Notes under the pieces: generated by a model | What the model was told of the DNA's origin: nothing | Seen by the model: only the letters and a program-made list of their open reading frames with translations | The model's database searches: none | In this document: in pieces, positions 12,963-42,565 of the stretch | Layout: each line of letters opens with the position of its first letter | Position numbering within the stretch: position 1 is the stretch's first letter | Made by a program: the position numbers and the translations under genes | Source: a virus | Reading direction: 5' to 3' (one strand) | Virus record (IMG/VR): IMGVR_UViG_3300047380_001405 | Span: 1 to 58,484 of that record | Length of the DNA: 58,484 nt

Positions 12963-15386
12963 TTAATCAACACCCACGATCCCACTCATACCTGAGCCTA
13001 ATGAATCTTGACCATCAAAGTCTATAGGATCTAAGTCTTGTTTTCTTTGCTGTATTAGCTTTGACTGTTGAGATGCTTGCTTAGCTGTTCTCTTGTCTTT
13101 CCTGTCTTCTTTGTATCTGTCTTTTTCCTGCTGCATTTGTAGCTCGGAAGACTTTATTTGACTTTCTATGCCCTTTTGCATTTTAATAAGCTCTGACTTA
13201 AGAAGAAACTCTTGCTGCATTCTCTTCATTTCTAACTCAGACTCTAGCTGCTTTATTTTAGCTTCTGCTTCCATTTTAGCTAAAGCGGTCTGTTGTTTTC
13301 CTTGTTCAGCTGTGAGTGAAGCTTGCTGATTGGCTTCTGCTTGAAGCGCAATGTTTTCTTGCTGACGTTTGTTGTCAAGCTTTTCTTTTCGTCTTTTTCT
13401 AACCTTCAATAACTGAGATGCTATTTTTACGTTCTTTACGCTTCTTATATCAATAGCATCATCAATGTCTATTTTACCAGCAGACAAGGAGGTTTGTATG
13501 TTTTGCTCTAACATTTGTCTTTCTTCCTCATCAGGATGAAGCTCTATGTATATTCCAAAATCATGTAAATGAAGCTCCTTTATTTCATTTAGTATATCGA
13601 CGCTGTGTCTTCCAATACTTTTTACGAAATCTTCTTTCATGGTAGAATATTCAAGTATATCTGAAATTCTGTATCCCACGCACTCAGCAATTCGTTGTGT
13701 TGTAAAAATACCTGACTTTAATATATGTCTTGTCGCAGTGTTTGAATTTAAGGCTGCTAATTTTTGAACGCCAACTAGTGCGTTTGGATCAGGCGTTGAG
13801 CCATCTCTTGCTTCGTTAAGTCCAGTTACGCCCCTTAATAGGTTTAGGTTGTAATTGTACATGTTTATTAAAGAAGATATTTTTGAGTTTGCTCCCGAAG
13901 AAGTTAGCTCTTGAATAGGGACTTTTCCATTATTAAACTCCCCTTCTTCTGTGTAGCTTCTTCCAATTACTGATCCTGTTTGAAAATAAAGGTTCAGAGC
14001 CTCTTGGGGAGAATAGGTATTTCCATTACCTAAATTCACAGATGATAGACCATCGATGTCAATAAAAACCCCATCTGGTATCATCTTAGATGCAACTTGT
14101 TGCAGTTTTAAATGCAATAGCTGTATCTGATCAGCGAATGGAATCATTCTTTTGACAAGAGAATCAATCTGACCCCTGTACATTTTTGGTGCACTGACAA
14201 TAAACGGGGCGTACACCTTCTCTATCGAGCTCTTTGGTCTCACCATGTTTTTCATCACCTCCCACTTCAATATCTTGTTTGTTCCTAATACAAGTACACC
14301 TTCGTACCATACGTCAATTCTTTTAGATAATTTTTCAAAACGTGCTTGTTCTGTTTTTGGTGGGTTGAATTGATCGTCCTTTTTAAGTACTTTTTCGCCT
14401 CCATAGGCGTTTTTCTTTTTCTTGTATACGATATTCTTGTCAGTCTTATAACAGAAATACAACAATGTTGCTGTATTGTAGTCAAATGTGTCAGTCTTAT
14501 AACCTCCACGCATGCCTTGATAGGCATCGAACTTAGAAGATGATTTAGCTATTTCATCTATCTCAGATTGCGTTAAATTAGGATTTATTTTTTTTATTTC
14601 AGTTATGTTTACATTTTTCACTTCTCCAAAGTAATAACAGTCCTCGAAATAAGGATCTTCAGTAGGGCTGTATACTAGGTCAGAAGGATCAACGTATTCA
14701 ACACGAATGCCTTCATGAGTATTAAAGGAATGTTTTACAGCAGATATACCTAGCACCGTTGCATCCTCATCAATTCTTTTTTTAGTCAATTCGTAGTTGT
14801 TATATTTTAAGGTTGTCTCAATTGCTTTTTCTTCGGCAATCTCTATGTCATCCTTGTAATCTATCTGCATATGAAGCTCAAGCTCGTCGTCTGTTTCTGG
14901 TAGCGTGTCTGGATTAGAGCTAAACATGCTTTTTCCTAGCATAGCTCCAATTTCCTCAAAATCCTCTTTGTTTCGCATTTCTGTTTGAATGCGATTTTTG
15001 TACATTGCTTTCTTGTTAGAGGATACAGGGTCAACCGAATCAGCCTTTACATCAAACAAACGATTTGAAATCCCATTAACAACAATATCTACAAACTTTG
15101 GTATTATTGGAACTGGAGTCCAATCTAAATTTAGATAAGATATATCTCCATTAACAGCTAGTTCGTTTTTATATTTTCTAACTGACTGCTCCCCCATTGC
15201 GTAAGTTCGCAGTTTATGGTAAGTGTCTCTGTTGTTATAAAACCTTGATTGTCCACCTTCTTTTCTGAACCATTCAGATTCGATGGCTCTTCCAACCATT
15301 AGCCCATATTCTTCTGACGCTTTCTCGGCATCGGACGCTAATTGGTTTGGAAATCCTATAATGTAATTCGTAGAAGAATTCTGCAT
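12963..15386 (-). CDS. Portal protein
   Basis: 807 residues, long for a portal because of a C-terminal Gln/Lys-rich coiled coil (about 665-780). The N-terminal half has portal-type features: a Tyr/Arg-rich wing start, an LDWTPVPIIPKFVDIVVNGI helix near residue 92, a KRIDEDA...GISAVKHSF core and the VEYVDPSDLVYSP strand. A crown-like helical region (SLINMYNYNLNLLRGVTGLNEARDGS) leads to the barrel. It lies between the terminase large subunit (5-base gap) and the scaffold gene, the canonical order. Confidence 0.85.
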   Translation of the reverse strand: MQNSSTNYIIGFPNQLASDAEKASEEYGLMVGRAIESEWFRKEGGQSRFYNNRDTYHKLRTYAMGEQSVRKYKNELAVNGDISYLNLDWTPVPIIPKFVDIVVNGISNRLFDVKADSVDPVSSNKKAMYKNRIQTEMRNKEDFEEIGAMLGKSMFSSNPDTLPETDDELELHMQIDYKDDIEIAEEKAIETTLKYNNYELTKKRIDEDATVLGISAVKHSFNTHEGIRVEYVDPSDLVYSPTEDPYFEDCYYFGEVKNVNITEIKKINPNLTQSEIDEIAKSSSKFDAYQGMRGGYKTDTFDYNTATLLYFCYKTDKNIVYKKKKNAYGGEKVLKKDDQFNPPKTEQARFEKLSKRIDVWYEGVLVLGTNKILKWEVMKNMVRPKSSIEKVYAPFIVSAPKMYRGQIDSLVKRMIPFADQIQLLHLKLQQVASKMIPDGVFIDIDGLSSVNLGNGNTYSPQEALNLYFQTGSVIGRSYTEEGEFNNGKVPIQELTSSGANSKISSLINMYNYNLNLLRGVTGLNEARDGSTPDPNALVGVQKLAALNSNTATRHILKSGIFTTQRIAECVGYRISDILEYSTMKEDFVKSIGRHSVDILNEIKELHLHDFGIYIELHPDEEERQMLEQNIQTSLSAGKIDIDDAIDIRSVKNVKIASQLLKVRKRRKEKLDNKRQQENIALQAEANQQASLTAEQGKQQTALAKMEAEAKIKQLESELEMKRMQQEFLLKSELIKMQKGIESQIKSSELQMQQEKDRYKEDRKDKRTAKQASQQSKLIQQRKQDLDPIDFDGQDSLGSGMSGIVGVD

Positions 15387-15390
15387 GCGT

Positions 15391-17670
15391 TTACTTTATA
15401 ATAGTGCTAACTGATCCGCTATTATTATATCTTGCAAAGTTAACATTTATTTCCGTATTATTTTTCTGAGGCTTAACTACATACTTTTGAGTTGCCATGA
15501 TCGCTAAACCAGAGCTAACCGTTGCATCAAACTTCGTTCTTTTATTTATATCATAGTTTGCCCAATCTAGTAAAGTTCTTGAAAAATACATGTTTCCAGT
15601 GCCTTCATCGTTGAAGCCAACTCGCTCCTCTATATAGGTTTCAATTGCTTCAGCGTGTATAGATATAACCGAAGGCGAAGAGGGTATTCCTCCAAGTTCT
15701 TTTTCTGCCTTTGATAGATCATTTTTATTCTTATCTGGTCTGTTTATACTCCACTTTCTATACCCTCTGTTTTTTATATGATAAAGAAGTCTTGGTTTGT
15801 TGTTCTCTGCTAATATTGGCATGCCGTAAAAAACCATAGCCATCAATACGTCTTCGTAAAATAACTCAGCAGTTTGAGGTCTATATATATATTCTAAAAA
15901 GAAAGTATTTGAAGGTCCATCTAGGTTTGGTCTACAGTATCCATGAAGAGCTCCATTAGAACCTCCACCTCCAACAGTTCCAGATATATCATATGAGTCA
16001 CAACCAAAAGCCCCTATATGCTCATTACCAGGATATTTAAATCCATTTTTATTTATAACCCTGTTTCTTAACTCAAAAGGAGGTATCCAAGAAACATAAA
16101 ACCTTCCGTTTTTTTCTGGTGTCCACACAACCTCTGAATCTTTTATCCCGTTTTTCCAATGAAAACCTCCTCTTTGAACAACTCTTTGCCTTTGAAGCCC
16201 GTCATTAAAATCTATTTGCTCATATATTTTTGTTAGATTAAATAGACTATTTTTTGCCTCATCCCTAAAAGCGTGACCTTCTGTTCTAGGAAACTGCCTA
16301 TAAAACTCATTAAGAGCATCAGAATCACTTCTTAGGCTCTCTACTTCATTTTCCCAGTAGTCTATTACCCCTCCATCTATTGTGTCTCCATAAGCGTCTA
16401 AAATAGGCTTATTTGGCTTTCTAAAAACTGGGTGACCGTGATGATTTAAAAAACCCTCGAAGTTCCATTCCATTGGTATAAATAAACTATACATGCCACT
16501 TTTAGTTTGACCATTAGCATTTCTCTGAGTCACATCAGAGTCCATATATAATCTCTTAAAATTACTTCCACCTTTGTCAAGTGAATTAGAGGTGGATCCC
16601 ATCATACACTTACCGATCACTCTTCTCCCTAGTCTGAGACAAGTTTTAGTGACACGCCAACTGTTGAGGATGTTATCTGGACGTTCCCATTTTCCAGACT
16701 CATCATGAACAAGCAGTCGGAGTTTCTCACCGTCATAGGAATTGTCGCCTGTATTTTTCCAATCAATTGTTGTGTCAAGACCTGCGAGTTCTTCTTGTTG
16801 TTCTGTTTCTTGAATCGATTTTCTAGTAAGCTTTGATGCTGGGACCCTGTAGGCGAGCTCTGTCTTGGGTTTGTCCATTCCGTCTTGTATTGGTTTAAAG
16901 AAGAAGGGATAGTTGACGGATATCGGTACGACCTTGTCTGTAAACATTTTTTTAGCATCAGCTCCTGATTTGGACAGTATCCCAAACCGTGCGTCTGAAG
17001 TAATTGTCGCTTGAGCAACGGATTCTGCTGAAGACATAAAGGAGAAACCAGACCTTCTGTTTTTAAGATAGCACATTCCGTAACACCTAGTGTCGGCTTT
17101 ACACGCTTCCCAGAAAATATAGAATACTCTATTAGACTCTCTGAACTCAGGGAGCCCAACATCAATCTTGGTCCACTGCAAGTACATGTAATGAGAGCCA
17201 GTAATATAAGTAGGATTGCCGTTGTTTTTAAACCAAAAACCATTTTCTCTTCTTTCAAACTCATCTTCAATGTAATCAACCCAACTCTCTTTGAATGCAG
17301 ACGGGTAGTCGTTCCACTGGAATATGGTCTTAATTTTTTTAAGTTCTTTTGGGATTTCGAAAGGTTCCCAGTATTGTTCTGCATCCGTCTTGTCTCTAGA
17401 GAAAATGTTTTTCGGCTGCAAAGGTAGTGCTATTTTTAAATTTTGTATCTCAACAACATCACCTATTTGCCCAGACTTAGATATGACAATAACATCATGT
17501 TCGCTGTTGTATCCATAGTCCCAAGCTTTCTTTTTGTTTAGTTTGTCTCTAGTTTTACTATCAATATGAGAGACAACCTTGCATAGCTCAAGACTTTCGT
17601 CCCCTAGACTCTGCGAAGCTTTGGAATCCTTTATCTTTTCCTTTGCCGTCTTTAGTCTGATCTTCGCCAT
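15391..17670 (-). CDS. terL: Terminase large subunit
   Basis: 759 residues. The ATPase part has NRRSGFSFMSSAE near 205-215 in the place of the P-loop (the usual GK[ST] is absent) and a Walker-B-like LLVHDE near 319-323. The nuclease part starts with GAFGCDSYD near 552-560, where the Asp residues fit the first metal-binding strand of the RNase-H-like fold, and continues with WSINRPDKNKND and FDATVSSGLA segments. It precedes the portal gene, and its start overlaps the putative small subunit by 83 bases. The degenerate P-loop is also seen in marine phage terminases as far as I recall. Confidence 0.85.
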   Translation of the reverse strand: MAKIRLKTAKEKIKDSKASQSLGDESLELCKVVSHIDSKTRDKLNKKKAWDYGYNSEHDVIVISKSGQIGDVVEIQNLKIALPLQPKNIFSRDKTDAEQYWEPFEIPKELKKIKTIFQWNDYPSAFKESWVDYIEDEFERRENGFWFKNNGNPTYITGSHYMYLQWTKIDVGLPEFRESNRVFYIFWEACKADTRCYGMCYLKNRRSGFSFMSSAESVAQATITSDARFGILSKSGADAKKMFTDKVVPISVNYPFFFKPIQDGMDKPKTELAYRVPASKLTRKSIQETEQQEELAGLDTTIDWKNTGDNSYDGEKLRLLVHDESGKWERPDNILNSWRVTKTCLRLGRRVIGKCMMGSTSNSLDKGGSNFKRLYMDSDVTQRNANGQTKSGMYSLFIPMEWNFEGFLNHHGHPVFRKPNKPILDAYGDTIDGGVIDYWENEVESLRSDSDALNEFYRQFPRTEGHAFRDEAKNSLFNLTKIYEQIDFNDGLQRQRVVQRGGFHWKNGIKDSEVVWTPEKNGRFYVSWIPPFELRNRVINKNGFKYPGNEHIGAFGCDSYDISGTVGGGGSNGALHGYCRPNLDGPSNTFFLEYIYRPQTAELFYEDVLMAMVFYGMPILAENNKPRLLYHIKNRGYRKWSINRPDKNKNDLSKAEKELGGIPSSPSVISIHAEAIETYIEERVGFNDEGTGNMYFSRTLLDWANYDINKRTKFDATVSSGLAIMATQKYVVKPQKNNTEINVNFARYNNSGSVSTIIK

Positions 17671-17887
17671 TTAATTTTTCTCTTTCATTTTCAATACGCT
17701 GTAATATTTCAAAGGCATCAAATATAGCAAGCTTCTTCGTTGCTGCTGCGTTTTTTAATCTATCGGCAGCTAAATCATCATCTGGTTTACCTGTAATTAT
17801 TTCTTCTTGAGCAACCTTTATTAATTCTTCAACAGCCCTTTCTCCAGCTAATATTACCCTTAATATTGTTTCTTGAGTGTCACTCAT
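17588..17887 (-). CDS. Putative terminase small subunit
   Basis: 99 residues, mostly helical: an N-terminal helix (ETILRVILAGERAVEELIKVAQ), an acidic turn with GKPDDDLAADRLKNAAATKKLAIFDAF as the second helical pair, and a basic disordered tail. Its 3' end overlaps the terminase large subunit start by 83 bases in another frame, a coupling typical of terS-terL. No clear HTH can be named, so the call relies on size, helical content and position. Confidence 0.5.
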   Translation of the reverse strand: MSDTQETILRVILAGERAVEELIKVAQEEIITGKPDDDLAADRLKNAAATKKLAIFDAFEILQRIENEREKLNGEDQTKDGKGKDKGFQSFAESRGRKS

Positions 17888-17950
17888 TTAAATAAGTATA
17901 AGTAAAGTAGTAGCCCTCCCAAGTTCCTGTTGTAACCCAATATTCTTCTT

Positions 17951-18184
17951 TCATTCTTTCTTAGCTTCTAAAAGTCCTCTTTCGTATTCAGACTTTTTTT
18001 CCAACTCCAATATACGACTTTCCATATTGCTAATGACTAAAATCTTTTCATCTAATCTTTCATGAACTAGATGAATTTCATCTTTCAAAGCAGTAAACTC
18101 AGCGAATATACCTCCTGCGGCAAATACAGCAACCACAAAAGAAACAACTATTGATAAATTATTTTTTATAAAAGCGTCAGGCAT
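17951..18184 (-). CDS. Small membrane protein with coiled-coil tail
   Basis: 77 residues. One transmembrane helix (about 9-28, IVVSFVVAVFAAGGIFAEF) is followed by a charged heptad-type helix to the end. Several proteins in this arm share this layout (26285-26644, 29587-29868, 30095-30391). Such proteins can be holin- or spanin-like or membrane anchors; no family is recognised. It lies just upstream of the terminase pair. Confidence 0.55.
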   Translation of the reverse strand: MPDAFIKNNLSIVVSFVVAVFAAGGIFAEFTALKDEIHLVHERLDEKILVISNMESRILELEKKSEYERGLLEAKKE

Positions 18185-18185
18185 A

Positions 18186-18731
18186 TTAACATAATTTAAT
18201 ACAAATATCCGAATTTTTCATTCTATATATTTTTTCGTCATCTATAACAAACTCATATTCAGAATTTCTAGTAAAACCAATTTTTGTTCCTTCAGTATAT
18301 ACTGAGCTATGTTTTATAAGTCCCACGTGCTCTTCCTTTTTTTTGTCAGATCTATATATCTCACCATCTTGAATATAGTCAAGAGGAGATACAAAGCAAT
18401 ATTCTTTAGTCGTTTTCCATCCATCTCCGTTATCGTACATATATATTTTATCAGGATGAACTAAATATTGACCATCCCTAAAGTATTCGTTACTTTTTCT
18501 TTTTTTGCCCTTCATATCAAGATAGGTTCTAAAAACATTATGATGAACAACTACTATACTACCAACTGGTATCTCTCCACCAATCGGAATCGCATTTACA
18601 ATACCCATTCGGTTTACAAAACTCGCATCCTCTATTGATGTGTTTATCGTGAACTCCTGGTTGGCTATTTTTTTTGTGTTTTTGTACTCTCTTCCTAAAG
18701 GAGTCACCAAGTAATCCCATCTTGGATTCAT
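18186..18731 (-). CDS. Putative divergent GroES-fold (co-chaperonin-like) protein
   Basis: 181 residues. The middle carries IPVGSIVVVHHNVFR, a strand pattern like the GroES segment 'G D x V', and the C-terminus has KIGFTRNSEYEFVIDDEKIYRMKNSDI, which lines up with the GroES ending of a G-x-x-V/I-x-F strand, a short turn, an I-D-x-E strand and an M-x-x-x-D-I end. Similar proteins occur in other marine phages. The genome also encodes a clear GroES (33100-33357), so this would be a second, highly divergent member. It overlaps the upstream gene by 4 bases. Confidence 0.4.
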   Translation of the reverse strand: MNPRWDYLVTPLGREYKNTKKIANQEFTINTSIEDASFVNRMGIVNAIPIGGEIPVGSIVVVHHNVFRTYLDMKGKKRKSNEYFRDGQYLVHPDKIYMYDNGDGWKTTKEYCFVSPLDYIQDGEIYRSDKKKEEHVGLIKHSSVYTEGTKIGFTRNSEYEFVIDDEKIYRMKNSDICIKLC

Positions 18732-18946
18732 ATTAGATTTATGTTGTATTCAACTACTACTGGAATATCCTTAAACTCTTTCCATTTTACAGACTCGTCG
18801 TTTTTTTTAACCCAAACACTAAATCCTTCTTGCTCTTGAGCTATATCGCTTATTGTATATGACCCTCCTAAAACCCCTTGATTAACTATATAGTGCATAG
18901 CATTCTTGTAGTCTGCTCCTACAGATATTTTTCTTATGTAATTCAT
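18728..18946 (-). CDS. Small hypothetical protein
   Basis: 72 residues with a likely alpha-beta-beta arrangement; the centre has VLGGSYTISDIAQEQEGFSVWVKKNDE. Its stop overlaps the next gene start (ATGA type, 4 bases), so it is translated in the same unit as the GroES-like protein. No family recognised. Confidence 0.55.
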   Translation of the reverse strand: MNYIRKISVGADYKNAMHYIVNQGVLGGSYTISDIAQEQEGFSVWVKKNDESVKWKEFKDIPVVVEYNINLI

Positions 18947-19246
18947 TTATATTTTATTTTCTTCGGTAAAGTTTGTGACCTTAACTATCTTGCCCATTTT
19001 ATAATGAACTGTTTGGCGTATAAATCCATTTTCCTTGTACATCACAAACAAACCGTCATTAATTAAAACTCCATCAACAACAACAACTTGACCCGAAATT
19101 ACAGGTTTTTCATTAGAATAAAAAACAACTTTCATTCTTTTCGTAGGTGAAGTTGCGATATGAGATTCATTTTTTTGTGAAAAAACACCTACTGTTGTAA
19201 GCAAAAACAGTAAAAATGTTAATCCGCATGTCTTTAGATCTTCCAT
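18947..19246 (-). CDS. Small secreted protein (signal peptide)
   Basis: 99 residues from the ATG at 19246, which lies 1 base past the preceding stop; an alternative in-frame ATG at 19258 adds 4 residues. Residues about 1-23 form a signal peptide with a hydrophobic core (GLTFLLFLLTTVGVFS) ending near Q-K. The mature part (about 75 residues) is beta-rich. There is no lipobox. It is likely exported to the periplasm, where it could act in lysis or superinfection control. Function unknown. Confidence 0.6.
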   Translation of the reverse strand: MEDLKTCGLTFLLFLLTTVGVFSQKNESHIATSPTKRMKVVFYSNEKPVISGQVVVVDGVLINDGLFVMYKENGFIRQTVHYKMGKIVKVTNFTEENKI

Positions 19247-19247
19247 T

Positions 19248-19688
19248 TTATATATCATCTACCATTTCCTCAAAACCTTGTCTTTGTTTTAGCCTTGAGT
19301 AAGCATCCACAAAAATATTGTTGTGATCTCCTTTGTAAAGTTCATTAGTAACTATGTAATTGTAGAAAGCATTGTCTCCATCTAGATAAGCTTGTTCACT
19401 TTCAAACACCCAAATTGCATACTGTATCTCGTAAAATTTCTGTGTGACTCCATCTGCATCTAAAAACAACCTTCTATTAACAGTCACTTGACTGATGTTG
19501 CAATAGACATTTTCGTGTTCTACGCTTGTAATTACAGGATCTTGTCCTTCTAGTGTCTCAGTTGTGCCTCTCTTATCATAGTCTGGATGTCCTTCGGGTA
19601 AGTCACTCGGATAAGTAACTTCAATTTCTCTAGCTGTGAACTCATTTGTGTGGTTTGCCCAATGAGTAAAAGTTCCAATTATTGCCAT
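19248..19688 (-). CDS. Tail-fibre-module protein, unknown
   Basis: 146 residues starting MAIIGTFTHWANHTNEFTAREIEVTYP. The first half is hydrophilic beta; the second has aromatic, acidic helical segments (YAIWVFESEQAYLDGD, FVDAYSRLKQRQGFEEMVDDI). It lies at the end of the run of fibre genes. The composition fits a chaperone or accessory protein for the fibres, but there is no proof. Confidence 0.5.
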   Translation of the reverse strand: MAIIGTFTHWANHTNEFTAREIEVTYPSDLPEGHPDYDKRGTTETLEGQDPVITSVEHENVYCNISQVTVNRRLFLDADGVTQKFYEIQYAIWVFESEQAYLDGDNAFYNYIVTNELYKGDHNNIFVDAYSRLKQRQGFEEMVDDI

Positions 19689-19698
19689 TTTTTTTATT

Positions 19699-20595
19699 TT
19701 ATGTTAAGTCAAATTCGTGTTGTAAAAGTCCTGCGGAAAAAGAATTAGTCCCTGCAGTTCCTGTTAAAGTGTTTCTCATCAAACTAGATGTGTTGCTATT
19801 AGTTGTGGCACTTGTATAATCACCTGTAGCACTTAAAACTCTATTTGATAATGAATATCCACTAGGAGCATAAGTGTAAAGTTGTACGTTTTGAGGAGCG
19901 TGATCAAAATAGTAGTGTGACCAAGTTCCCCCACCTTGTCTATTTGTGGTGTTTGTTGCAAGTTTTATGTCCATACAACAATTACCAGAACCGCATCCCG
20001 TGTAAGGCGAATTAGTCCAATAACTAACATTGTAAGCGGTGTTATATTCATTTCCTCTACAGCCATTCAAAATGTGAGGTGCAGTCCCATTGAATTGAGC
20101 AGGACTCGTTGATGTACCTCCATAGCCTGTCCGCATATATCCAGCATTTTGATAAGTAGAAGTGCTTGTGTCAAGATATTGGTTAGTCAAAGAAAGTTGA
20201 GATATACTTGTGTATGACAATTTAGAGCTAGTGCTTTGTGAAATTAAATTTGGTACAAAAGCAGTTGCTTGAGTCCTAGTCACACCTACGCTTTCTCCTC
20301 CATCGTTTATAGCAAAAGCAGTAATGTAGTAAGTTGTCCCTGCAGTTAATCCTGTTGCATTATAAGTGTAAGCACCTGTCGAAGCATTTGTTGAAACTGT
20401 ATATTTTGTGTTAGATAAATAACTTGCATTTGCTCCAATGTAAAATCCTACACTAACATTTCCACTTCCTCCACCAATAGAACTCAATGTTCCATTAGCA
20501 GTAAATGTAGTTCCTGCAACGCTACTAGTTGAATCTGTAACTACTACAGGCAATTCTATTGAGCCAAAACTTAAAAATCTTCTTCCTAAACTCAT
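19699..20595 (-). CDS. Fibre/adhesin with FN3-like N-terminal domain
   Basis: 298 residues, Ser/Thr/Asn/Gly/Tyr-rich. Residues about 15-105 look like one fibronectin-III/Ig-type domain, ending TGLTAGTTYYITAFAIND. The remainder is a Tyr/Asn/Ser-rich domain with a GCGSGNCCMD cysteine cluster near residue 197. It belongs to the consecutive fibre genes (19.2-29.6 kb). A receptor-binding or fibre-tip role is inferred. Confidence 0.6.
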   Translation of the reverse strand: MSLGRRFLSFGSIELPVVVTDSTSSVAGTTFTANGTLSSIGGGSGNVSVGFYIGANASYLSNTKYTVSTNASTGAYTYNATGLTAGTTYYITAFAINDGGESVGVTRTQATAFVPNLISQSTSSKLSYTSISQLSLTNQYLDTSTSTYQNAGYMRTGYGGTSTSPAQFNGTAPHILNGCRGNEYNTAYNVSYWTNSPYTGCGSGNCCMDIKLATNTTNRQGGGTWSHYYFDHAPQNVQLYTYAPSGYSLSNRVLSATGDYTSATTNSNTSSLMRNTLTGTAGTNSFSAGLLQHEFDLT

Positions 20596-33103: not shown

Positions 33104-33357
33104 AGAACTACAACTATCTGTCTATCAGGTATAACCGTAAGTTTTTCTCCGTTAATTCTTATGTCAGAGCCAGCAGCAGAGTCATAATAAATTTTATCGC
33201 CCTCAGACAAACCCTTAACATTTTCACCAGCTGAAACAACCTCAGCTAATTTATACCGTATAGCTTTGTCAGAAAATTCTGTTATTATAAAACCCCCCTT
33301 ACTTTTAACCTCTTCATTTTCTTTTCTAACAACCACAAATGATCCTATTGCTTTCAT
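33100..33357 (-). CDS. groES: GroES-type co-chaperonin
   Basis: 85 residues, a little shorter than the 97 of E. coli. KSKGGFIITE (about 18-27) is the mobile loop with its hydrophobic GGF-I-I tract. SEGDKIYYDSAAGSDIRINGEKLTVIPDRQIVVVL has the G-D-K, strand and D-R/I ending of the family. The start overlaps the groEL stop (ATGA), so the two are co-translated. It caps GroEL rings, here probably specialised for phage proteins. Confidence 0.85.
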   Translation of the reverse strand: MKAIGSFVVVRKENEEVKSKGGFIITEFSDKAIRYKLAEVVSAGENVKGLSEGDKIYYDSAAGSDIRINGEKLTVIPDRQIVVVL

Positions 33358-34943
33358 GCTCTTTTATTTGATATAGTACAGTTTGTAGTTAAAATTGTTA
33401 TCGAAACCGATATTGCGTTTTGCAGTGCGTTCTTAGTTACCTTGAATGGATCTATAATCCCCATAGAAAACATGTTCCCAAACTTCTTTCTTTTCACATC
33501 AAACCCGTAGTTTCTTCTTCTTACGGTATCTATTTTCTCTACAAATGAATCGTAACTCATTGAAGCGTTTTCTAGTATGTGCTTTATAGGGGAGATTAAT
33601 GCTGCTGATAAAATAGAACAAGCAGCTTTCATTTCATCGTCACTTTCTTTAAAGTATCTGTTATGCATTTCCATAGCTGCATTATACAATGCCACTCCTC
33701 CTCCTGCAACAATTCCTTCTTCAAGAGCAGCACGTGTCGCAAATATAGCATCCTCAACTCTATCCTTCTTCTCTTTCATTTCTACCTCAGTTAGCGCTCC
33801 TACATGTATAGCAGCAATCCCCCCCGAAAGCCTAGAAAGACGATCCTTATAATGCCACTCATTTGAAGAATCATCTTTTTTCTTTAAAATATTTCTAACC
33901 ATCTCAGCTCTTTCTTTAACAGCGTCAGCTGTTTTTTCAGAATTTAAAGTGAGTACAGTTTCTTTTTCTGTTGATACAGTCTTTTTTGCAGTTCCTAAGA
34001 AGCTTTCATCTACAGCAGAAAAGTCATTACCAGTCTCATCAGAAACAACAATAGCCCCCGTCATAATAGCTAGGTCTTCTAAAAGCTCAAATCTATTTAA
34101 CCCGACACCCTCTGGGTTTATGACATTAACCTTGATGACCCCTCTTGTCTTGTTCACATTAAGAAGCTGCATTACATTGTCTTCTATTTCAGAAACAATA
34201 AGTATTGGTTTTTTGTTTTGCATTGCAAACTGACAGCACGGTTCTATATCCTCCCAAGTGTTTATTTTTTTATCTGATATTAAAATAAAAGGATCTTCAA
34301 GAATAGCTTGTTTCTTCTCCACATCTGTAATCATGTATGGACTATGAAATCCTCTTTTAATTCTTGTGCCCTCTAATATTTCTGTGTGTGTATCTTTTGT
34401 CATTGACTCTTCTATAGTCACCACACCCTCTACGCCAACTTTAAGATACGCATCAGCTATAATTTCTCCAAGCTCAGAGTCGTTGTTTGCTGAAATGGTT
34501 GCTACGCTTTTTAAATTTTTTTCTGTAACCTCTCTAGACCTTTTCTTAATCTCTTCAATAACGTCATTCGATAAGGACTCTAGAGAGTTTCTAAGTTTTG
34601 TTACGTTTACGTTTTTTGACTCTATGTATTCAAATGAACGATTGACTAATTCTTGAGTTAGAACGATTGAAGTTGTTGTTCCGTCTCCTGCTTCATCAGC
34701 TGTCTTAATAGACGCTTGCTTTACTACTGTAGCTCCTAAGTGCTCTACGGGGTCTGACAAGTTTATACTCTTGGCAACTGTAACACCATCCTTAGTAACG
34801 TGGGGTCTACCTATTTCATCCTCTAAAATAACTGTATTACCTGCTGCTCCTAGTGTTTGTTTCACAGCATCTGCTAAAGTATCTATTCCTTTTTTTAGGC
34901 TGTGTCTAGCATCTTCATTGAAGTCAATGTTTTTTTCTATCAT
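33354..34943 (-). CDS. groEL: GroEL-type chaperonin
   Basis: 529 residues, close to the usual 540-550. GDGTTTS (about 86-92) is the nucleotide-binding motif. EEGIVAGGGVALYNAAMEM and the DRVEDAIFATRAA stretch, with the Asp that matches the catalytic Asp398 region, are conserved. GIIDPFKVTKNALQNAISVS closes the equatorial domain. It lacks the GGM tail. A TATATTTG box lies 27 bases upstream. It appears full length and intact, an uncommon gene in phages, and probably folds virion proteins. Confidence 0.95.
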   Translation of the reverse strand: MIEKNIDFNEDARHSLKKGIDTLADAVKQTLGAAGNTVILEDEIGRPHVTKDGVTVAKSINLSDPVEHLGATVVKQASIKTADEAGDGTTTSIVLTQELVNRSFEYIESKNVNVTKLRNSLESLSNDVIEEIKKRSREVTEKNLKSVATISANNDSELGEIIADAYLKVGVEGVVTIEESMTKDTHTEILEGTRIKRGFHSPYMITDVEKKQAILEDPFILISDKKINTWEDIEPCCQFAMQNKKPILIVSEIEDNVMQLLNVNKTRGVIKVNVINPEGVGLNRFELLEDLAIMTGAIVVSDETGNDFSAVDESFLGTAKKTVSTEKETVLTLNSEKTADAVKERAEMVRNILKKKDDSSNEWHYKDRLSRLSGGIAAIHVGALTEVEMKEKKDRVEDAIFATRAALEEGIVAGGGVALYNAAMEMHNRYFKESDDEMKAACSILSAALISPIKHILENASMSYDSFVEKIDTVRRRNYGFDVKRKKFGNMFSMGIIDPFKVTKNALQNAISVSITILTTNCTISNKRA

Positions 34944-37499: not shown

Positions 37500-37706
37500 T
37501 GTGAATCGATTTGGACGGATGCCAATCTGTAGATTACTAATCGAGGGTGCAGAGAAACACTCAGAGATATCAGACCTAGCGGAACGGGAAGCTCGAAATT
37601 CTTACAACAATTGCCAAGATAGGCATGATGGTCGAGCGCCTGCTCCCAATGTTGAATACATCCTCCTCCAGATGGAGATAGGGACTGCGGCTAAGAGCCG
37701 TCAATA
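37500..37706 (+). ncRNA. Structured non-coding leader RNA
   Basis: A run of short hairpins in about 200 bases: GAGGGTG/CACTC, TGCC-AAGAT-AGGCA, GAGC-GCCT-GCTC, CTCC-AGAT-GGAG and CGGCT-AAG-AGCCG. A 79-codon reading frame covers part of it (37471-37710) but its composition is unlike a protein and it lacks a normal leader. It runs straight into the stem I strand of the hammerhead-like element, so it may be part of the same RNA (regulatory domain or protective leader). Novel to me; no known class matched by eye. Confidence 0.5.
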
Positions 37707-37847
37707 TTAAGATTAAGTAAGTATATCTGATGATGCTGGAGAGAGACAAAACTCCTAGACTCCTTTCGTAGAGGGGAACCTGTAATGGTCGAAACGTAAA
37801 CGGTATGCGGGCTACGAAAACCCGCTTACGTCATATACTAATCTTAA
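37707..37847 (+). ncRNA. Hammerhead-like ribozyme (type I layout) with in-cis target site
   Basis: Stem I 5' strand: TTAAGATTA (37707-37715), bulge AGTAA, GTATAT (37721-37726). Core CTGATGA at 37727-37733. A 57-base segment stands in the place of stem II and folds locally as three hairpins (37736-37758, 37760-37776, 37778-37789). Core GAA is at 37791-37793. Stem III ACGTAA (37794-37799) pairs with TTACGT (37826-37831) across a hairpin GCGGG/CCCGC. C37832 is the cleavage nucleotide (GTC). Stem I 3' strand: ATATAC (37833-37838) and TAATCTTAA (37839-37847). Boxes and flanks sit in the hammerhead order. The weak point is stem II, which has no normal helix next to the core. Confidence 0.75.
37807..37847 (+). 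repeat. Processing-site repeat copy 1 (hairpin + 20-mer)
   Basis: Hairpin GCGGG/CCCGC (37807-37825), then TT and the exact 20-mer ACGTCATATACTAATCTTAA (37828-37847). Predicted cut after C37832, 26 bases before the ATG at 37859. This copy is in cis to the ribozyme strand. Confidence 0.9.
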
Positions 37848-37858
37848 AATTAATTACA

Positions 37859-38203
37859 ATGAACTTAAATAGCTTAAACAACAGAAAGCCTAATCTAAGA
37901 ACCTATACTGGTTATCTTGAAACAATTCAGAAACATATGAATCCAACGAAAGAGTACACTCACAGAAGTTTTGAAAGACACGAAATTTTTGAACAGGATG
38001 ATAGAACGTTGGTATTAAATATGATTCAATCAACCTATGGAACTGGAGATTGTGATTCTGAAATAACAAACATGCTGTTTGGACTGTTTGATGGTTACTG
38101 GTATGACAGACTTATGACTGATTTGCATGAGTCAAAAATATTCAAACCAAGTACACTAATTGAACTTTCTGAAATACTAGATAGAATAGAAGATTCCATT
38201 TAA
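37859..38203 (+). CDS. Early hypothetical protein
   Basis: 114 residues from the ATG at 37859. The open frame extends upstream to 37805 but that part overlaps the repeat and ribozyme stem, so I start after it. Charged, with helical segments (YTGYLETIQKHMN, LIELSEILDRIEDSI) and a CDSEITNMLFGLFDGYWYDRL core. First gene of the array with the shared leader. No family recognised. Confidence 0.65.
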   Translation: MNLNSLNNRKPNLRTYTGYLETIQKHMNPTKEYTHRSFERHEIFEQDDRTLVLNMIQSTYGTGDCDSEITNMLFGLFDGYWYDRLMTDLHESKIFKPSTLIELSEILDRIEDSI

Positions 38204-38211
38204 TTATGGTC

Positions 38212-38250
38212 GGAGGGAGCAATCCCTCCAACGTCATATACTAATCTTAA
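38212..38250 (+). repeat. Processing-site repeat copy 2
   Basis: GGAGGG (38212-38217), loop AGCAAT, CCCTCC (38224-38229), then A and the exact 20-mer at 38231-38250. Predicted cut after C38235, 27 bases before the ATG at 38263. Confidence 0.9.
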
Positions 38251-38262
38251 ATAATAATTAAA

Positions 38263-38457
38263 ATGGCACAATCAAGATTCACATCAATATTAAACAAAGC
38301 TAGAATTCTTCAAACAATTCATGCAAGTTGGTCACTACAGAAATGTGTTCAGCACCTAGAAAACAAAGGCGTTATAATACTTTCAGAATTTGAAAAAGGT
38401 ATGTTTTATACCCATGACGAAGAAACCTTAATTGGATTCGGTAAGTTATTTAATTAA
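38263..38457 (+). CDS. Small early hypothetical protein
   Basis: 64 residues. Helical N-terminal half (RFTSILNKARILQTIHASWSLQKCVQHLENKG), C-terminal beta turn (FYTHDEETLIGFGKLF). Its ATG follows the repeat by 12 bases. No family recognised. Confidence 0.65.
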   Translation: MAQSRFTSILNKARILQTIHASWSLQKCVQHLENKGVIILSEFEKGMFYTHDEETLIGFGKLFN

Positions 38458-38464
38458 TTAAAAT

Positions 38465-38503
38465 GGGGAGTTATCGCTCCCCTACGTCATATACTAATCT
38501 TAA
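38465..38503 (+). repeat. Processing-site repeat copy 3
   Basis: GGGGAG (38465-38470), loop TTATCG, CTCCCC (38477-38482), T, then the exact 20-mer (38484-38503). Predicted cut after C38488, 26 bases before the ATG at 38515. Confidence 0.9.
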
Positions 38504-38514
38504 AATTAATTACA

Positions 38515-38763
38515 ATGACACTCAAAAAGTTTTATTTAAAAAACTACCCAACAGATGATATGGGTACTGAAATTAATAGTAAATCTACTTTTCAAGGATT
38601 AATGAATACACTCGTTCAAAAAAATGATGTTTATGATTATATCGGTGTAGGAGATTCTATTGTTAGAGAAAGATTGTTTCAAGGATTATCAAAAGAACAA
38701 GTATCAGTTACTGCTGATAGCGATGTTTTTCTTGATATTATATACCATCTTTGGACATCCTAA
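38515..38763 (+). CDS. Small early hypothetical protein
   Basis: 82 residues, mixed alpha/beta, with FQGLMNTLVQKNDVYDYIGVGDSIVRERLFQGLSKEQ in the middle and a WTS end. Leader from repeat copy 3. No family recognised. Confidence 0.65.
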   Translation: MTLKKFYLKNYPTDDMGTEINSKSTFQGLMNTLVQKNDVYDYIGVGDSIVRERLFQGLSKEQVSVTADSDVFLDIIYHLWTS

Positions 38764-38775
38764 ATTCAAAAGTAT

Positions 38776-38813
38776 AGGGGTAGAAATGCCCCTACGTCAT
38801 ATACTAATCTTAA
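38776..38813 (+). repeat. Processing-site repeat copy 4
   Basis: AGGGG (38776-38780) and CCCCT (38789-38793) with inner TA/TG pairs and loop GAAA, then the exact 20-mer (38794-38813). Predicted cut after C38798, 31 bases before the ATG at 38830. Confidence 0.9.
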
Positions 38814-38829
38814 TTTAAATATAAATATT

Positions 38830-39732
38830 ATGAAAACTCTTGTAAACACACACATGAACCATGTAAACAATGACGAAGTAAATGCTATACTAGACCAATT
38901 CGGTTTGAACTGGAAAGTAGAGAAACGTCCATTGTTTTTTCAGGCAACAGAATCAATTGATGTCCCAACAGACTATTTTGGTGTAATCAGAACTGATAAC
39001 AATGATTGTTTTGGTGCTATGACTAATCAATATGAGCCATTTCAAAACTCTGAGTTAGCTGAATTAGTACTAAATATATCTGATGTTATCGATAAGCCTG
39101 TAACACATGGTAAAGTGTTCAAAGGAGGTCGTAGAGTTGCTATGCAAATTGAGTTAGAACCAATCAAGGTTGGTTTTGACACAATCAAACGCTATGCTAC
39201 TGCAATTAATTCTCATGATGGTTCAACGTCATTAAGATGGGGAACTACAGGATACACAGTATCGTGTGACAATCAATTCAGTGCATTACGTAAGGACTTG
39301 CAAAGCAGTGCTAAACACACAGGTAATATGAGACAATTGATTGATAACTCATTCAGGACTCTCGAAAGACTTGAAAAAGCAGACACGACCTTGTATGATA
39401 CGTTTAGAAAAATGACTGAAGTCCCAGTGACAACAGACTTTGTTAATGACGTTATCAAGAAAATCAGCAAAGTTGATTTGAAGACACCTACACGTGAAGC
39501 ACAAAAGTTGTATAGTACTAGAGCAATCAACAAAAGCCAAGACTTATTCTTGTCTACTGCAAAGGAGATGAGTTACAAAGGTCAGACGCTATGGGGATTA
39601 TTCTCAGGTATTACACACTACACTACACACAAAGGTGGTTCAGATAGAACTAGAGAGGAATCAAAGTTAATTGGTGGATTGCAAAAAATCGACCAAACAA
39701 TCTTTGACCAATTCTCTGAACTAGTTTCTTAA
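38830..39732 (+). CDS. DUF932 (phage/plasmid-like) protein
   Basis: 300 residues. FGVIRTDNNDCFGAMTNQYEPFQNSELAELV, INSHDGSTSLRWGTTGYTVSCDNQF and the long helical C-terminus match the DUF932 family found in many phages and plasmids. The function of that family is not established; an early role in DNA transactions is often suspected. It is the largest protein in this array and has the shared leader. Confidence 0.8.
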   Translation: MKTLVNTHMNHVNNDEVNAILDQFGLNWKVEKRPLFFQATESIDVPTDYFGVIRTDNNDCFGAMTNQYEPFQNSELAELVLNISDVIDKPVTHGKVFKGGRRVAMQIELEPIKVGFDTIKRYATAINSHDGSTSLRWGTTGYTVSCDNQFSALRKDLQSSAKHTGNMRQLIDNSFRTLERLEKADTTLYDTFRKMTEVPVTTDFVNDVIKKISKVDLKTPTREAQKLYSTRAINKSQDLFLSTAKEMSYKGQTLWGLFSGITHYTTHKGGSDRTREESKLIGGLQKIDQTIFDQFSELVS

Positions 39733-39739
39733 TTAATCG

Positions 39740-39778
39740 GGGGGTAGCAATACCCCCTACGTCATATACTAATCTTAA
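39740..39778 (+). repeat. Processing-site repeat copy 5
   Basis: GGGGGTA (39740-39746), loop GCAA, TACCCCC (39751-39757), T, then the exact 20-mer (39759-39778). Predicted cut after C39763, 26 bases before the ATG at 39790. Confidence 0.9.
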
Positions 39779-39789
39779 TTTAAAACAAA

Positions 39790-39957
39790 ATGAAAGCAAA
39801 TTGGAAAGACAATTTTGAGAGCCTATACAATGACATTGTAGGTGTTGTTACAGTAGATGGCGAAGAGATGACAGATGGAGAGTGTGTTGATGCCTTATTT
39901 AGTGTATTAAAAAAGTATCGAGGCAAATCAGACGAACAGACAGAAGTAAAATTTTAA
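39790..39957 (+). CDS. 55-residue acidic early protein
   Basis: ATG at 39790, stop TAA at 39957. Acidic, with an N-W-K-D-N-F-E-S-L-Y start and a helix ECVDALFSVLKKY. It sits between two shared-leader units with a short A/T-rich spacer to the next gene. No family recognised. Confidence 0.6.
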   Translation: MKANWKDNFESLYNDIVGVVTVDGEEMTDGECVDALFSVLKKYRGKSDEQTEVKF

Positions 39958-39972
39958 CTTAAATTAAATAAA

Positions 39973-40128
39973 ATGAAACGTAAAATAGTTTTTATACAAT
40001 ACAATGTTTGGAATGATAAATATCAGATCGTAGATAGTTGGTTTCCACCGAAAAAAATAATAAAGGAATTCAAATATCATGCGAGTGCTATTAAATACAA
40101 ATCCAAATACAATCAGGGGCTAATTTAA
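39973..40128 (+). CDS. 51-residue basic early protein
   Basis: ATG at 39973, stop TAA ending at 40128 inside the hairpin of repeat copy 6. Basic and aromatic (RKIVFIQYNVWNDKYQIV). The only spacer before it is a short A/T leader without the 20-mer, so it probably shares a message with the gene before it. Confidence 0.6.
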   Translation: MKRKIVFIQYNVWNDKYQIVDSWFPPKKIIKEFKYHASAIKYKSKYNQGLI

Positions 40129-40154
40129 GCCCCTACGTCATATACTAATCTTAA
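40115..40154 (+). repeat. Processing-site repeat copy 6
   Basis: AGGGGCT (40115-40121), loop AATTTA, AGCCCCT (40128-40134), then the exact 20-mer (40135-40154). The upstream stop codon is inside the loop. Predicted cut after C40139, 25 bases before the ATG at 40165. Confidence 0.9.
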
Positions 40155-40164
40155 TTAAAATCAT

Positions 40165-40599
40165 ATGAAAATTGATTACATCAAGTATGAAAAATCTCAT
40201 GGTGGTAGAGAAAACTATTTTCCTGTAGGTAGGAAAAAAGACTTAGTTGGTGATTGTGCTATTAGGGCAATCGCATTGGCACTAGAGATGGATTATATGC
40301 AAGTGCTGAGAGAACTCATGAATTTAGCAGTTGAAAAATTTGGTATACCATATGCTAACAGTCAACGAGTTTATGAGGATTACTTAAACAGTAAAGGATG
40401 GGTGAAAAAACCCCTGAAAGAAGGTAAAACGTGGAAACCTTTATACAAACACAAGCGTAGATTAGAACAGAACAAAAACTATATATTCTATGTTAGAGTT
40501 GGTTATCAAACACATCTTACTTCTGTAGTAAAAGGAATCAATAAAGATACATGGCTATGTCAAGATAGAATGGCGTATGCTATGTACGATAAACCTTAA
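40165..40599 (+). CDS. Putative papain-like cysteine peptidase family protein
   Basis: 144 residues. LVGDCAIRAIALALEMDY (about 27-44) resembles the G-D-C-x-I-R-A-I-A start of papain-like proteins, with Cys in the place of the nucleophile. YEDYLNSKGW and YQTHLTSVV (about 112-120) follow, the latter offering the His. A cysteine peptidase or an inactive relative acting on a host protein is possible. Family membership is by pattern only. Confidence 0.5.
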   Translation: MKIDYIKYEKSHGGRENYFPVGRKKDLVGDCAIRAIALALEMDYMQVLRELMNLAVEKFGIPYANSQRVYEDYLNSKGWVKKPLKEGKTWKPLYKHKRRLEQNKNYIFYVRVGYQTHLTSVVKGINKDTWLCQDRMAYAMYDKP

Positions 40600-40607
40600 T
40601 TTAAATC

Positions 40608-40649
40608 GAGGGGTGTATTAACATCCCTCACGTCATATACTAATCTTAA
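40608..40649 (+). repeat. Processing-site repeat copy 7
   Basis: GAGGGGTGT (40608-40616), loop ATTA, ACATCCCTC (40621-40629), then the exact 20-mer (40630-40649). Predicted cut after C40634, 31 bases before the ATG at 40666. Confidence 0.9.
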
Positions 40650-40665
40650 ATTAAATATAAATATT

Positions 40666-41187
40666 ATGAATGCAATAGAATTAATTAAAAAAGAGATTCG
40701 AATATTCGAATCAAAAGTGACTGCTAGGGAATTAGCTGAGGCAATCAAGATGGTTACAGTAGACCTCATAGATGAACTCGCAGAACTATATGAACACGAT
40801 GATGAAGACCAAATTGAATTAGTTAATGGCTTTGTGCTACACCAGTCATCAGAAGATGGTGGCGGGTGTGTGGATATTGTCCACGAAGAGGATTGGTTTA
40901 ATGTCATTAACTGTTCTATATCAGAAGACACTCAAAGTGTTTGTTTTGACCCTGTCGAAAAGTCAGAAGTCATCACAGAGGCTATTAAAATAGCGAACAG
41001 AAAGACTTTTATCTTAAAACAAACAGTATCATATGAAGTGAAACTAGAAGTGGAGGATGAAAGTGTGGAAGATGTTATTGCAAAAGCAGAAAATGGAGAG
41101 TTTGATGAAGATTTATGTTACCTTGAAACTGAGTTTAAAGCAATAGATTCAAGAGAGTATGAATTTTCTGCTAGTGAAAAAGAATAA
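40666..41187 (+). CDS. Acidic early protein
   Basis: 173 residues, rich in Glu, Asp, Val and Ile. N-terminal helix (NAIELIKKEIRIFESKVTAREL), a central part with GFVLHQSSEDGGGCVDIVHEEDWFNV, and an acidic C-terminus (SVEDVIAKAENGEFDEDLCYLETE). The strong negative charge is typical of DNA-mimic or inhibitor proteins of phages, but no family is recognised. Confidence 0.6.
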   Translation: MNAIELIKKEIRIFESKVTARELAEAIKMVTVDLIDELAELYEHDDEDQIELVNGFVLHQSSEDGGGCVDIVHEEDWFNVINCSISEDTQSVCFDPVEKSEVITEAIKIANRKTFILKQTVSYEVKLEVEDESVEDVIAKAENGEFDEDLCYLETEFKAIDSREYEFSASEKE

Positions 41188-41193
41188 TTTAAA

Positions 41194-41232
41194 AGGGGAC
41201 TTCGTGTCCCCTACGTCATATACTAATCTTAA
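41194..41232 (+). repeat. Processing-site repeat copy 8
   Basis: AGGGGAC (41194-41200), loop TTCGT, GTCCCCT (41206-41212), then the exact 20-mer (41213-41232). Predicted cut after C41217, 25 bases before the ATG at 41243. Confidence 0.9.
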
Positions 41233-41242
41233 ATTAAATAAA

Positions 41243-41476
41243 ATGGAAATTAATTTAACACCACAGGACGTGGTAAAAATGTCTGAGAACAAGGTTAATG
41301 AATGCTTTGATATATTCAAAGAGCCATTAAACTTAGAGGAGGCAAGTAGCCTTATTAATGCAATTCTTCCGCAATTAGAACAGGTAATATCTGACACGTT
41401 GCAGGAGCAGATTTATGATGACCTCATGGATAAGAATGGAGGTCATGATTGGATTGACGAAAAGCTGTCGAAATGA
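41243..41476 (+). CDS. Small acidic early protein
   Basis: 77 residues from the ATG at 41243. The open frame extends upstream through the repeat, but that start is excluded because it lies before the processing site. Mostly helical and acidic. Its end overlaps the next start (ATGA). Confidence 0.6.
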   Translation: MEINLTPQDVVKMSENKVNECFDIFKEPLNLEEASSLINAILPQLEQVISDTLQEQIYDDLMDKNGGHDWIDEKLSK

Positions 41477-41915: not shown

Positions 41916-41933
41916 GGGAGGAGCAATCCTCCC
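41916..41933 (+). repeat. G/C-rich hairpin in front of the complete hammerhead
   Basis: GGGAGG (41916-41921), loop AGCAAT, CCTCCC (41928-41933). Same design and loop as repeat copy 2 but with the complete ribozyme in place of the 20-mer. No T-tract follows, so it is not an intrinsic terminator. Confidence 0.85.
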
Positions 41934-41984
41934 TCTGTCGATAGGTGTGTGCCTATCCTGATGAGTCCGAAAGGACGAAACAGA
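41934..41984 (+). ncRNA. Complete type III hammerhead ribozyme
   Basis: Stem III TCTGT (41934-41938) pairs with ACAGA (41980-41984). C41939 after GT is the cleavage nucleotide. Stem I hairpin GATAGG-TGTGTG-CCTATC (41940-41957). Core CTGATGA (41958-41964). Stem II GTCC-GAAA-GGAC (41965-41976). Core GAA (41977-41979), then A-C. Every core base matches the hammerhead consensus, and the open helix is stem III. The predicted cut is 6 bases after the G/C hairpin, as in the repeats, and 70 bases before the ATG at 42010; the ribozyme stays on the downstream RNA. Confidence 0.95.
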
Positions 41985-42009
41985 ATTATTAATTAAACAA
42001 TAAACAATT

Positions 42010-42502: not shown

Positions 42503-42565
42503 CTTGCAAACAAAATAGGGGAAGCCGAAAACCTTACAGAGTAGGCGTATTTAAATTTTAATATA
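42503..42565 (+). other. Short intergenic spacer with small hairpins
   Basis: 63 bases with GGGGAAGCC, GCC (42525-42527) facing GGC (42545-42547) and CCT/AGG pairs inside. It ends in an A/T leader before the ATG at 42566. There is no 20-mer and no ribozyme core. Confidence 0.4.

Follow-up and report, generated by a model that had tools for sequence, protein, structure and literature searches.

One leader hammerhead strand, probably shared by many substrate sites, in the early operon of a marine phage

The window analysed here is the entire IMG/VR virus record IMGVR_UViG_3300047380_001405, 58,484 bases of a marine bacterial virus, and its early operon very probably carries a single hammerhead strand, encoded in the leader and similar to type I, for many substrate sites in the spacers between the genes. 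Sequence comparison with related phages shows that pairing between strand and sites builds hammerhead stems I and III, and that this pairing is kept as both partners change from one phage to another. Cleavage at the sites, action in trans and an effect on translation are what we infer from this arrangement.

The strand in the window (positions 37707-37797) reads TTAAGATTA-AGTAA-GTATAT-CTGATGA-57 nt-GAA-ACGT, just as an initial annotation of this DNA had described it; under an order-1 Markov model, chance would produce such a combination of core and two arms about 7e-9 times per window. The 20-mer that the annotation had placed in eight spacers is present in all eight without a mismatch (Table 1); no further copy occurs in the window, even when three mismatches are allowed, and shuffles lead one to expect 0.01. 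Its layout is ACGT-C-ATATACTAATCTTAA, with four nucleotides of stem III, then a C, where the cut is predicted, and then 15 nucleotides of stem I, which pair with the arm 5' of CTGATGA in 6 + 9 bp round a bulge. Every copy pairs with the strand at 10 of 10 positions in stem III and inner stem I, in addition to the 9 bp of outer stem I, and the limits of the conserved block coincide with the limits of the pairing, both as had been claimed. The predicted cut lies 25-31 nucleotides 5' of an ATG at all eight sites, and the stretch between the two is A/T-rich and almost without structure. Directly 5' of each 20-mer stands a hairpin of 5-9 bp, which the initial annotation had not mentioned, and the eight hairpin sequences differ.

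A search for relatives with the nearby exonuclease gave 80 loci with flanks. The same spacer design was found in the uncultured phage genomes L055, L061, L062, L063 and L064, and in L020 and L022, where the leader lies off the contig. A CUGANGA strand stands just 5' of the first site in all five relatives with a readable leader, and each genome holds 5-9 matched sites spread over 1.9-4 kb. Over the window and its relatives, the cleavage triplet claimed for the window (NUH) is seen as UC (GUC or UUC) at 46 of 46 sites; an ATG follows the predicted cut by 25-31 nucleotides at 45 of these, the exception having its ATG within the site. A hairpin precedes all 46, with 42 distinct hairpin sequences, and some hairpins consist of A and T only (TTATATA..TATATAA) rather than being G/C-rich (L062 at 5973; L063 at 4191 and 5233; L064 at 2953 and 3642). 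As these still fold, it is the shape of the hairpin that is kept and not its sequence.

The relatives also allow the arms to be compared with sites that have diverged. The initial annotation had named, as the outcome that would count against it, relatives with an altered 20-mer but with arms that had not been altered to fit; wherever both could be read, the arms match the changed sites. In inner stem I, the site ATATAC of the window faces the arm GTATAT; TTATAT faces ATATAA in L055; ATATAC, ATGTAC or ACAT.. face GTATGT in L061; and TATTAC/T faces GTAATA in L062 and L064 and GTAATG in L063. In stem III, ACGT pairs with ACGT, replaced in L061 by GCTT with AAGC. For 12 distinct ribozyme-site pairings from six genomes, scored at 10 base pairs, 98.3% of cells are paired vs 76.6% in shuffles, two-sided changes number 28 vs 11.3 and are seen in six of the 10 pairs, and the covariation score is 0.63 vs 0.22; none of 500 shuffles reached the observed value of any of the three. 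When the register is slid, pairing drops to 12-55%, and in a cross-pairing matrix each ribozyme scores 9.6-10 of 10 with its own sites and 5-9 with sites of another type. The rows of this alignment are not independent, as they represent three main types of stem I and two of stem III, so that the separate events are few, though each is clean. Moreover, the rows are composites in which ribozyme arm and site were joined by hand, and the alignment therefore holds no fitted structure beyond that choice.

The catalytic core is kept along with the arms. CUGANGA and GAAA are present in all six ribozyme strands (the window and five relatives), a canonical core with stem II (GTCC/GGAC or GACC/GGTC) is found in L055, L062, L063 and L064, and the 10.1-11.1 pair with a stem II helix occurs in the same four genomes and at window positions 41932-41986. 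L055 matches the Rfam type I hammerhead model RF00163 at 40.6 bits (threshold 34; E 6.8e-7) over the ribozyme and the first site together. In L062-L064, many bases of an insert in stem I can pair with the loop of stem II (-14 to -18 kcal/mol), which resembles an enlarged version of the contact between loops that natural hammerheads have; no such contact was identified in the window. As to the window, its description as a hammerhead-like strand stands for the core and the arms but not for a standard stem II, for which there is a possible G-C pair opening on three hairpins. Both in the window and in L061, three hairpins joined by single-nucleotide linkers lie between CTGATGA and GAA, possibly closed by one G-C pair, and the first loop of the region is similar in the two (GAGACAAAA and GAGATAAAA). 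We read this region as a branched variant of stem II. That such a variant is active is the least certain step of the model; should it fail, the window copy may be slow and the copies of the relatives active.

The count of eight sites was correct for the 20-mer, but the initial annotation had missed a ninth spacer that carries a complete hammerhead of its own. Positions 41932-41986 match RF00008 at 45.4 bits (E 1.9e-8) with every core position kept; because the gathering score of that family is 48.5 bits, a search at the gathering score did not report it. The hairpin 5' of the ninth processing point, GGGAGGAGCAATCCTCCC, follows the design seen at the eight sites. An undoubted hammerhead design is thus used by the window phage for what is predicted to be the same kind of cut in a similar place, which argues that cutting at the spacers is itself a selected feature.

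Whether the leader strand would serve distant sites bears on an otherwise simpler reading, in which only the first site is cut, in cis, trimming the 5' end of the operon, and the remaining copies, pieces of the leader scattered by recombination, stay uncut. The first site is indeed placed as in an ordinary type I hammerhead, the Rfam match of L055 covers the ribozyme plus this site, and in the window it is the first site that has the longest stem III. However, the distal copies keep only the paired block, behind hairpins that differ in sequence, they track the arms in every phage, and several matched sites per genome lie outside the fold of the strand. Moreover, distal sites outpair the first site in L055, where stem III is AACGU (5 bp) at distal sites vs CACGU (4 bp) at the first, and in L063, where several distal sites have CCAACGU (7 bp with ACGUUGG) vs GCGU, which includes a G-U pair, at the first site. 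Such stronger distal stems suggest tuning for distal sites and hence action at a distance. The ninth spacer, with its own hammerhead and the selection for spacer cutting that this implies, likewise speaks against a cut at the first site alone, and we regard that reading as improbable. The duplexes between the arm and the 3' product are weak (-5.5 to -9.3 kcal/mol), so that product release is possible, and co-folding places trans stem I pairing in the computed complexes; trans stem III is not always part of the minimum-energy fold.

Two further explanations dispense with cutting by RNA altogether. Were the leader RNA to pair with the sites as an antisense regulator of translation or stability, its core being a relic, pairing alone would account for the covariation of stem I, and the unusual stem II of the window would agree with it. 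Simple pairing, however, needs neither the core nucleotides and canonical stem II kept in four relatives, nor the invariant NUH base, nor the covariation of stem III, and we give this explanation very little weight. Least probable of all is that the 20-mers are promoters, protein-binding sites or RNase sites behind terminators. They do lie 5' of each ATG, and the hairpins resemble terminators, but a protein site is not expected to track an RNA strand far from it, what comes after the hairpins is ACGUC and not a run of U, and the flavobacterial promoter hexamer TAnnTTTG is absent from the 20-mer. Promoters behind terminators were rejected on the covariation of the sites with the ribozyme arms.

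Several observations weigh against a shared hammerhead strand. The strands of the window and L061 lack a normal stem II and both are invisible to Rfam, whose hammerhead models gave no match to the window strand at 37727, to L061 or to L062. In the window, the first site can form 6 bp of stem III in cis vs 4-5 bp in trans, and the cis product would therefore compete; the competition after cleavage foreseen in the initial annotation is thus real here, the first site being the stronger. Both parts could be read in only six genomes, three of which are close to one another. Finally, L051, 87% identical in the exonuclease gene, has an early operon without recognisable sites or ribozyme, so that the lineage can do without the system, which is gained or lost between close relatives.

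The search was also extended beyond these genomes. A scan of 84,980 genomes of bacteria and archaea for the ribozyme pattern gave 54 matches, but in no case did a true core together with GAAA occur in context; in viral contigs, looser patterns for the sites returned chance matches only, apart from L020 and L022; and additional scans yielded only L195, a near-copy of L064, and the chance match L199. L020 and L022 have a fourth type of site, CTC^ATTTAAC..CTAATCTTA, behind hairpins (in L022 at about 978, 1855, 2164 and 2599), for which the predicted ribozyme lies off the contig. In a related podovirus, L193 (MW202828), a repeated spacer element of another kind, the palindrome GTGTCGTTAACGACAC, precedes many of the early genes and also occurs in the leader (about 13740-19907); a hammerhead core was not found in L193.

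Phage T7 offers a protein-based parallel: its early mRNA is polycistronic and is cut by host RNase III within intercistronic hairpins into smaller mRNAs. Here too, a polycistronic phage early mRNA would be split at intercistronic hairpins, but in T7 a host protein cuts inside the hairpin, whereas in the present case the predicted cut falls next to the hairpin and would be made by RNA. The core chemistry is that of a hammerhead, and in core, stems and cleavage triplet the system resembles type I (RF00163), of which L055 is a member above the family threshold; known natural type I hammerheads, however, have one site in their own fold, in contrast to the one strand here, whose several sites are spread over kilobases. 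Natural hammerheads are described as cis-acting and trans forms as engineered (PMC12192606; PMC6155905), and in a literature search that covered few subscription papers and left preprints outside, we found no earlier report of, or counterpart to, one ribozyme strand with many sites. Tandem hammerheads in bacterial polycistronic RNAs (C. scindens, A. caulinodans and A. tumefaciens) also make several cuts per operon and have phage-like genes nearby, but use a complete ribozyme for each cut, not one ribozyme with many half-sites (PMC3088659); the ninth spacer of the window is of this tandem kind. HHphage of haloviruses HF1/HF2 similarly stands at the 5' terminus of a polycistronic RNA that a phage makes early, with a mapped 5' end near the cut, although it is single-site, acts only in cis and belongs to an archaeal virus (PMC3088659). 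In the discontinuous Clec2 hammerhead, ribozyme and substrate strands are parted by a long insert in the mRNA, as here, but there is one substrate strand, the type is III and the setting is a mammalian 3' UTR (PMC6155905). RNase P RNA is a natural RNA catalyst with many trans substrates, yet it is an unrelated, large ribozyme with a protein partner and tRNA substrates (PMC5839562).

The leader upstream of the strand is structured too. The whole window leader folds better than shuffles (z -2.7), and a domain 5' of the ribozyme aligns with the leaders of L062 (1935-2140), L063 and L064 under the consensus CAACAATTGCCAA.ATAGGCATG.TGGT..GAGC...GGACT.CGGCTAA..GCCGTC. The leader had no match in Rfam at E<=10, and a group I intron or lariat-capping ribozyme, which had looked possible by eye, was rejected on this result. 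Downstream of the sites, the same operon carries a DUF805b RNA (RF02914, an Rfam cis-regulatory motif) at 42515-42547, as do L061 (5831-5865) and L055 (6652-6687), again downstream of the sites. The terminase of the window matches a PHROG of terminase large subunits, and the closest relatives that have names are phages of Flavobacterium, Cellulophaga, Tenacibaculum and Maribacter and an uncultured podovirus from Manatee Spring (terminase identity 65%), so that a flavobacterial host is likely; among named phages, no nucleotide homologue was found. A GroEL-like chaperonin gene, judged by eye, is present at 33354-34943, and the annotation of the Manatee Spring relative includes groEL and a 10 kd chaperonin.

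Table 1. Positions in the window of the hammerhead strand, its sites and associated features
Feature	Position	Strand	Remark
Structured leader domain 5' of ribozyme, conserved	37513-37703	+	Aligned with L062, L063 and L064 leaders
Stem I arm: outer TTAAGATTA, bulge AGTAA, inner GTATAT	37707-37726	+	Complementary to 8/8 sites; covaries in relatives
Hammerhead core strand CTGATGA	37727-37733	+	Position as canonical cores of L055, L062, L063, L064
Stem II region, non-canonical; G37735-C37790 closing pair round three hairpins	37734-37790	+	Closing pair is our reading
Three stem II-region hairpins	37736-37758, 37761-37777, 37778-37789	+	Same hairpin order in L061 fold
Core GAA and stem III strand ACGT	37791-37797	+	Stem III covaries with sites (AAGC/GCTT in L061)
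Hairpin 5' of site 1	37807-37825	+	Closing stem III in cis
Site 1 (cis site)	37828-37847	+	Predicted cut 37832/37833
Operon served by sites	37862-41473	+	Small genes and one DUF932 gene (38830-39732)
Hairpin 5' of site 2	38212-38229	+	
Site 2	38231-38250	+	Predicted cut 38235/38236
Hairpin 5' of site 3	38465-38482	+	
Site 3	38484-38503	+	Predicted cut 38488/38489
Hairpin 5' of site 4	38775-38794	+	
Site 4	38794-38813	+	Predicted cut 38798/38799
Hairpin 5' of site 5	39739-39758	+	
Site 5	39759-39778	+	Predicted cut 39763/39764
Hairpin 5' of site 6	40115-40134	+	
Site 6	40135-40154	+	Predicted cut 40139/40140
Hairpin 5' of site 7	40608-40629	+	
Site 7	40630-40649	+	Predicted cut 40634/40635
Hairpin 5' of site 8	41194-41212	+	
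Site 8	41213-41232	+	Predicted cut 41217/41218
Hairpin 5' of ninth processing point	41916-41933	+	Design as at the eight sites
Complete, self-contained type III hammerhead	41932-41986	+	Rfam RF00008; predicted cut 41939/41940

The layout itself states a role, the dicing of mRNA. In the model that we propose, the first site would be cut in cis by the leader strand, and the other sites either by fold-back along the same RNA or by the released leader RNA in trans, with the hammerhead of the ninth spacer doing the same job there. The polycistronic transcript would be turned into single-gene mRNAs, each with a 5'-OH and an unstructured, A/T-rich leader of 25-31 nucleotides, and each closed at its 3' end by a hairpin that bears a 2',3'-cyclic phosphate. 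The likely benefit in a flavobacterial host would be that leaders are free for translation, together with protective 3' hairpins. With less confidence, although we lean towards it, the released leader RNA may be a true trans-acting RNA enzyme that dices the viral polycistronic mRNA at matched half-sites, the first natural small nucleolytic ribozyme with multiple substrates, each phage having its own orthogonal pair of ribozyme and sites that evolve together. If so, a small ribozyme working on many separate substrates, so far engineered rather than found, would exist in nature, and phages such as these would supply ready-made orthogonal ribozyme-site pairs for building self-processing operons. 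For phages whose hosts make little use of Shine-Dalgarno sequences, the arrangement also suggests a way to give each gene a clean leader.

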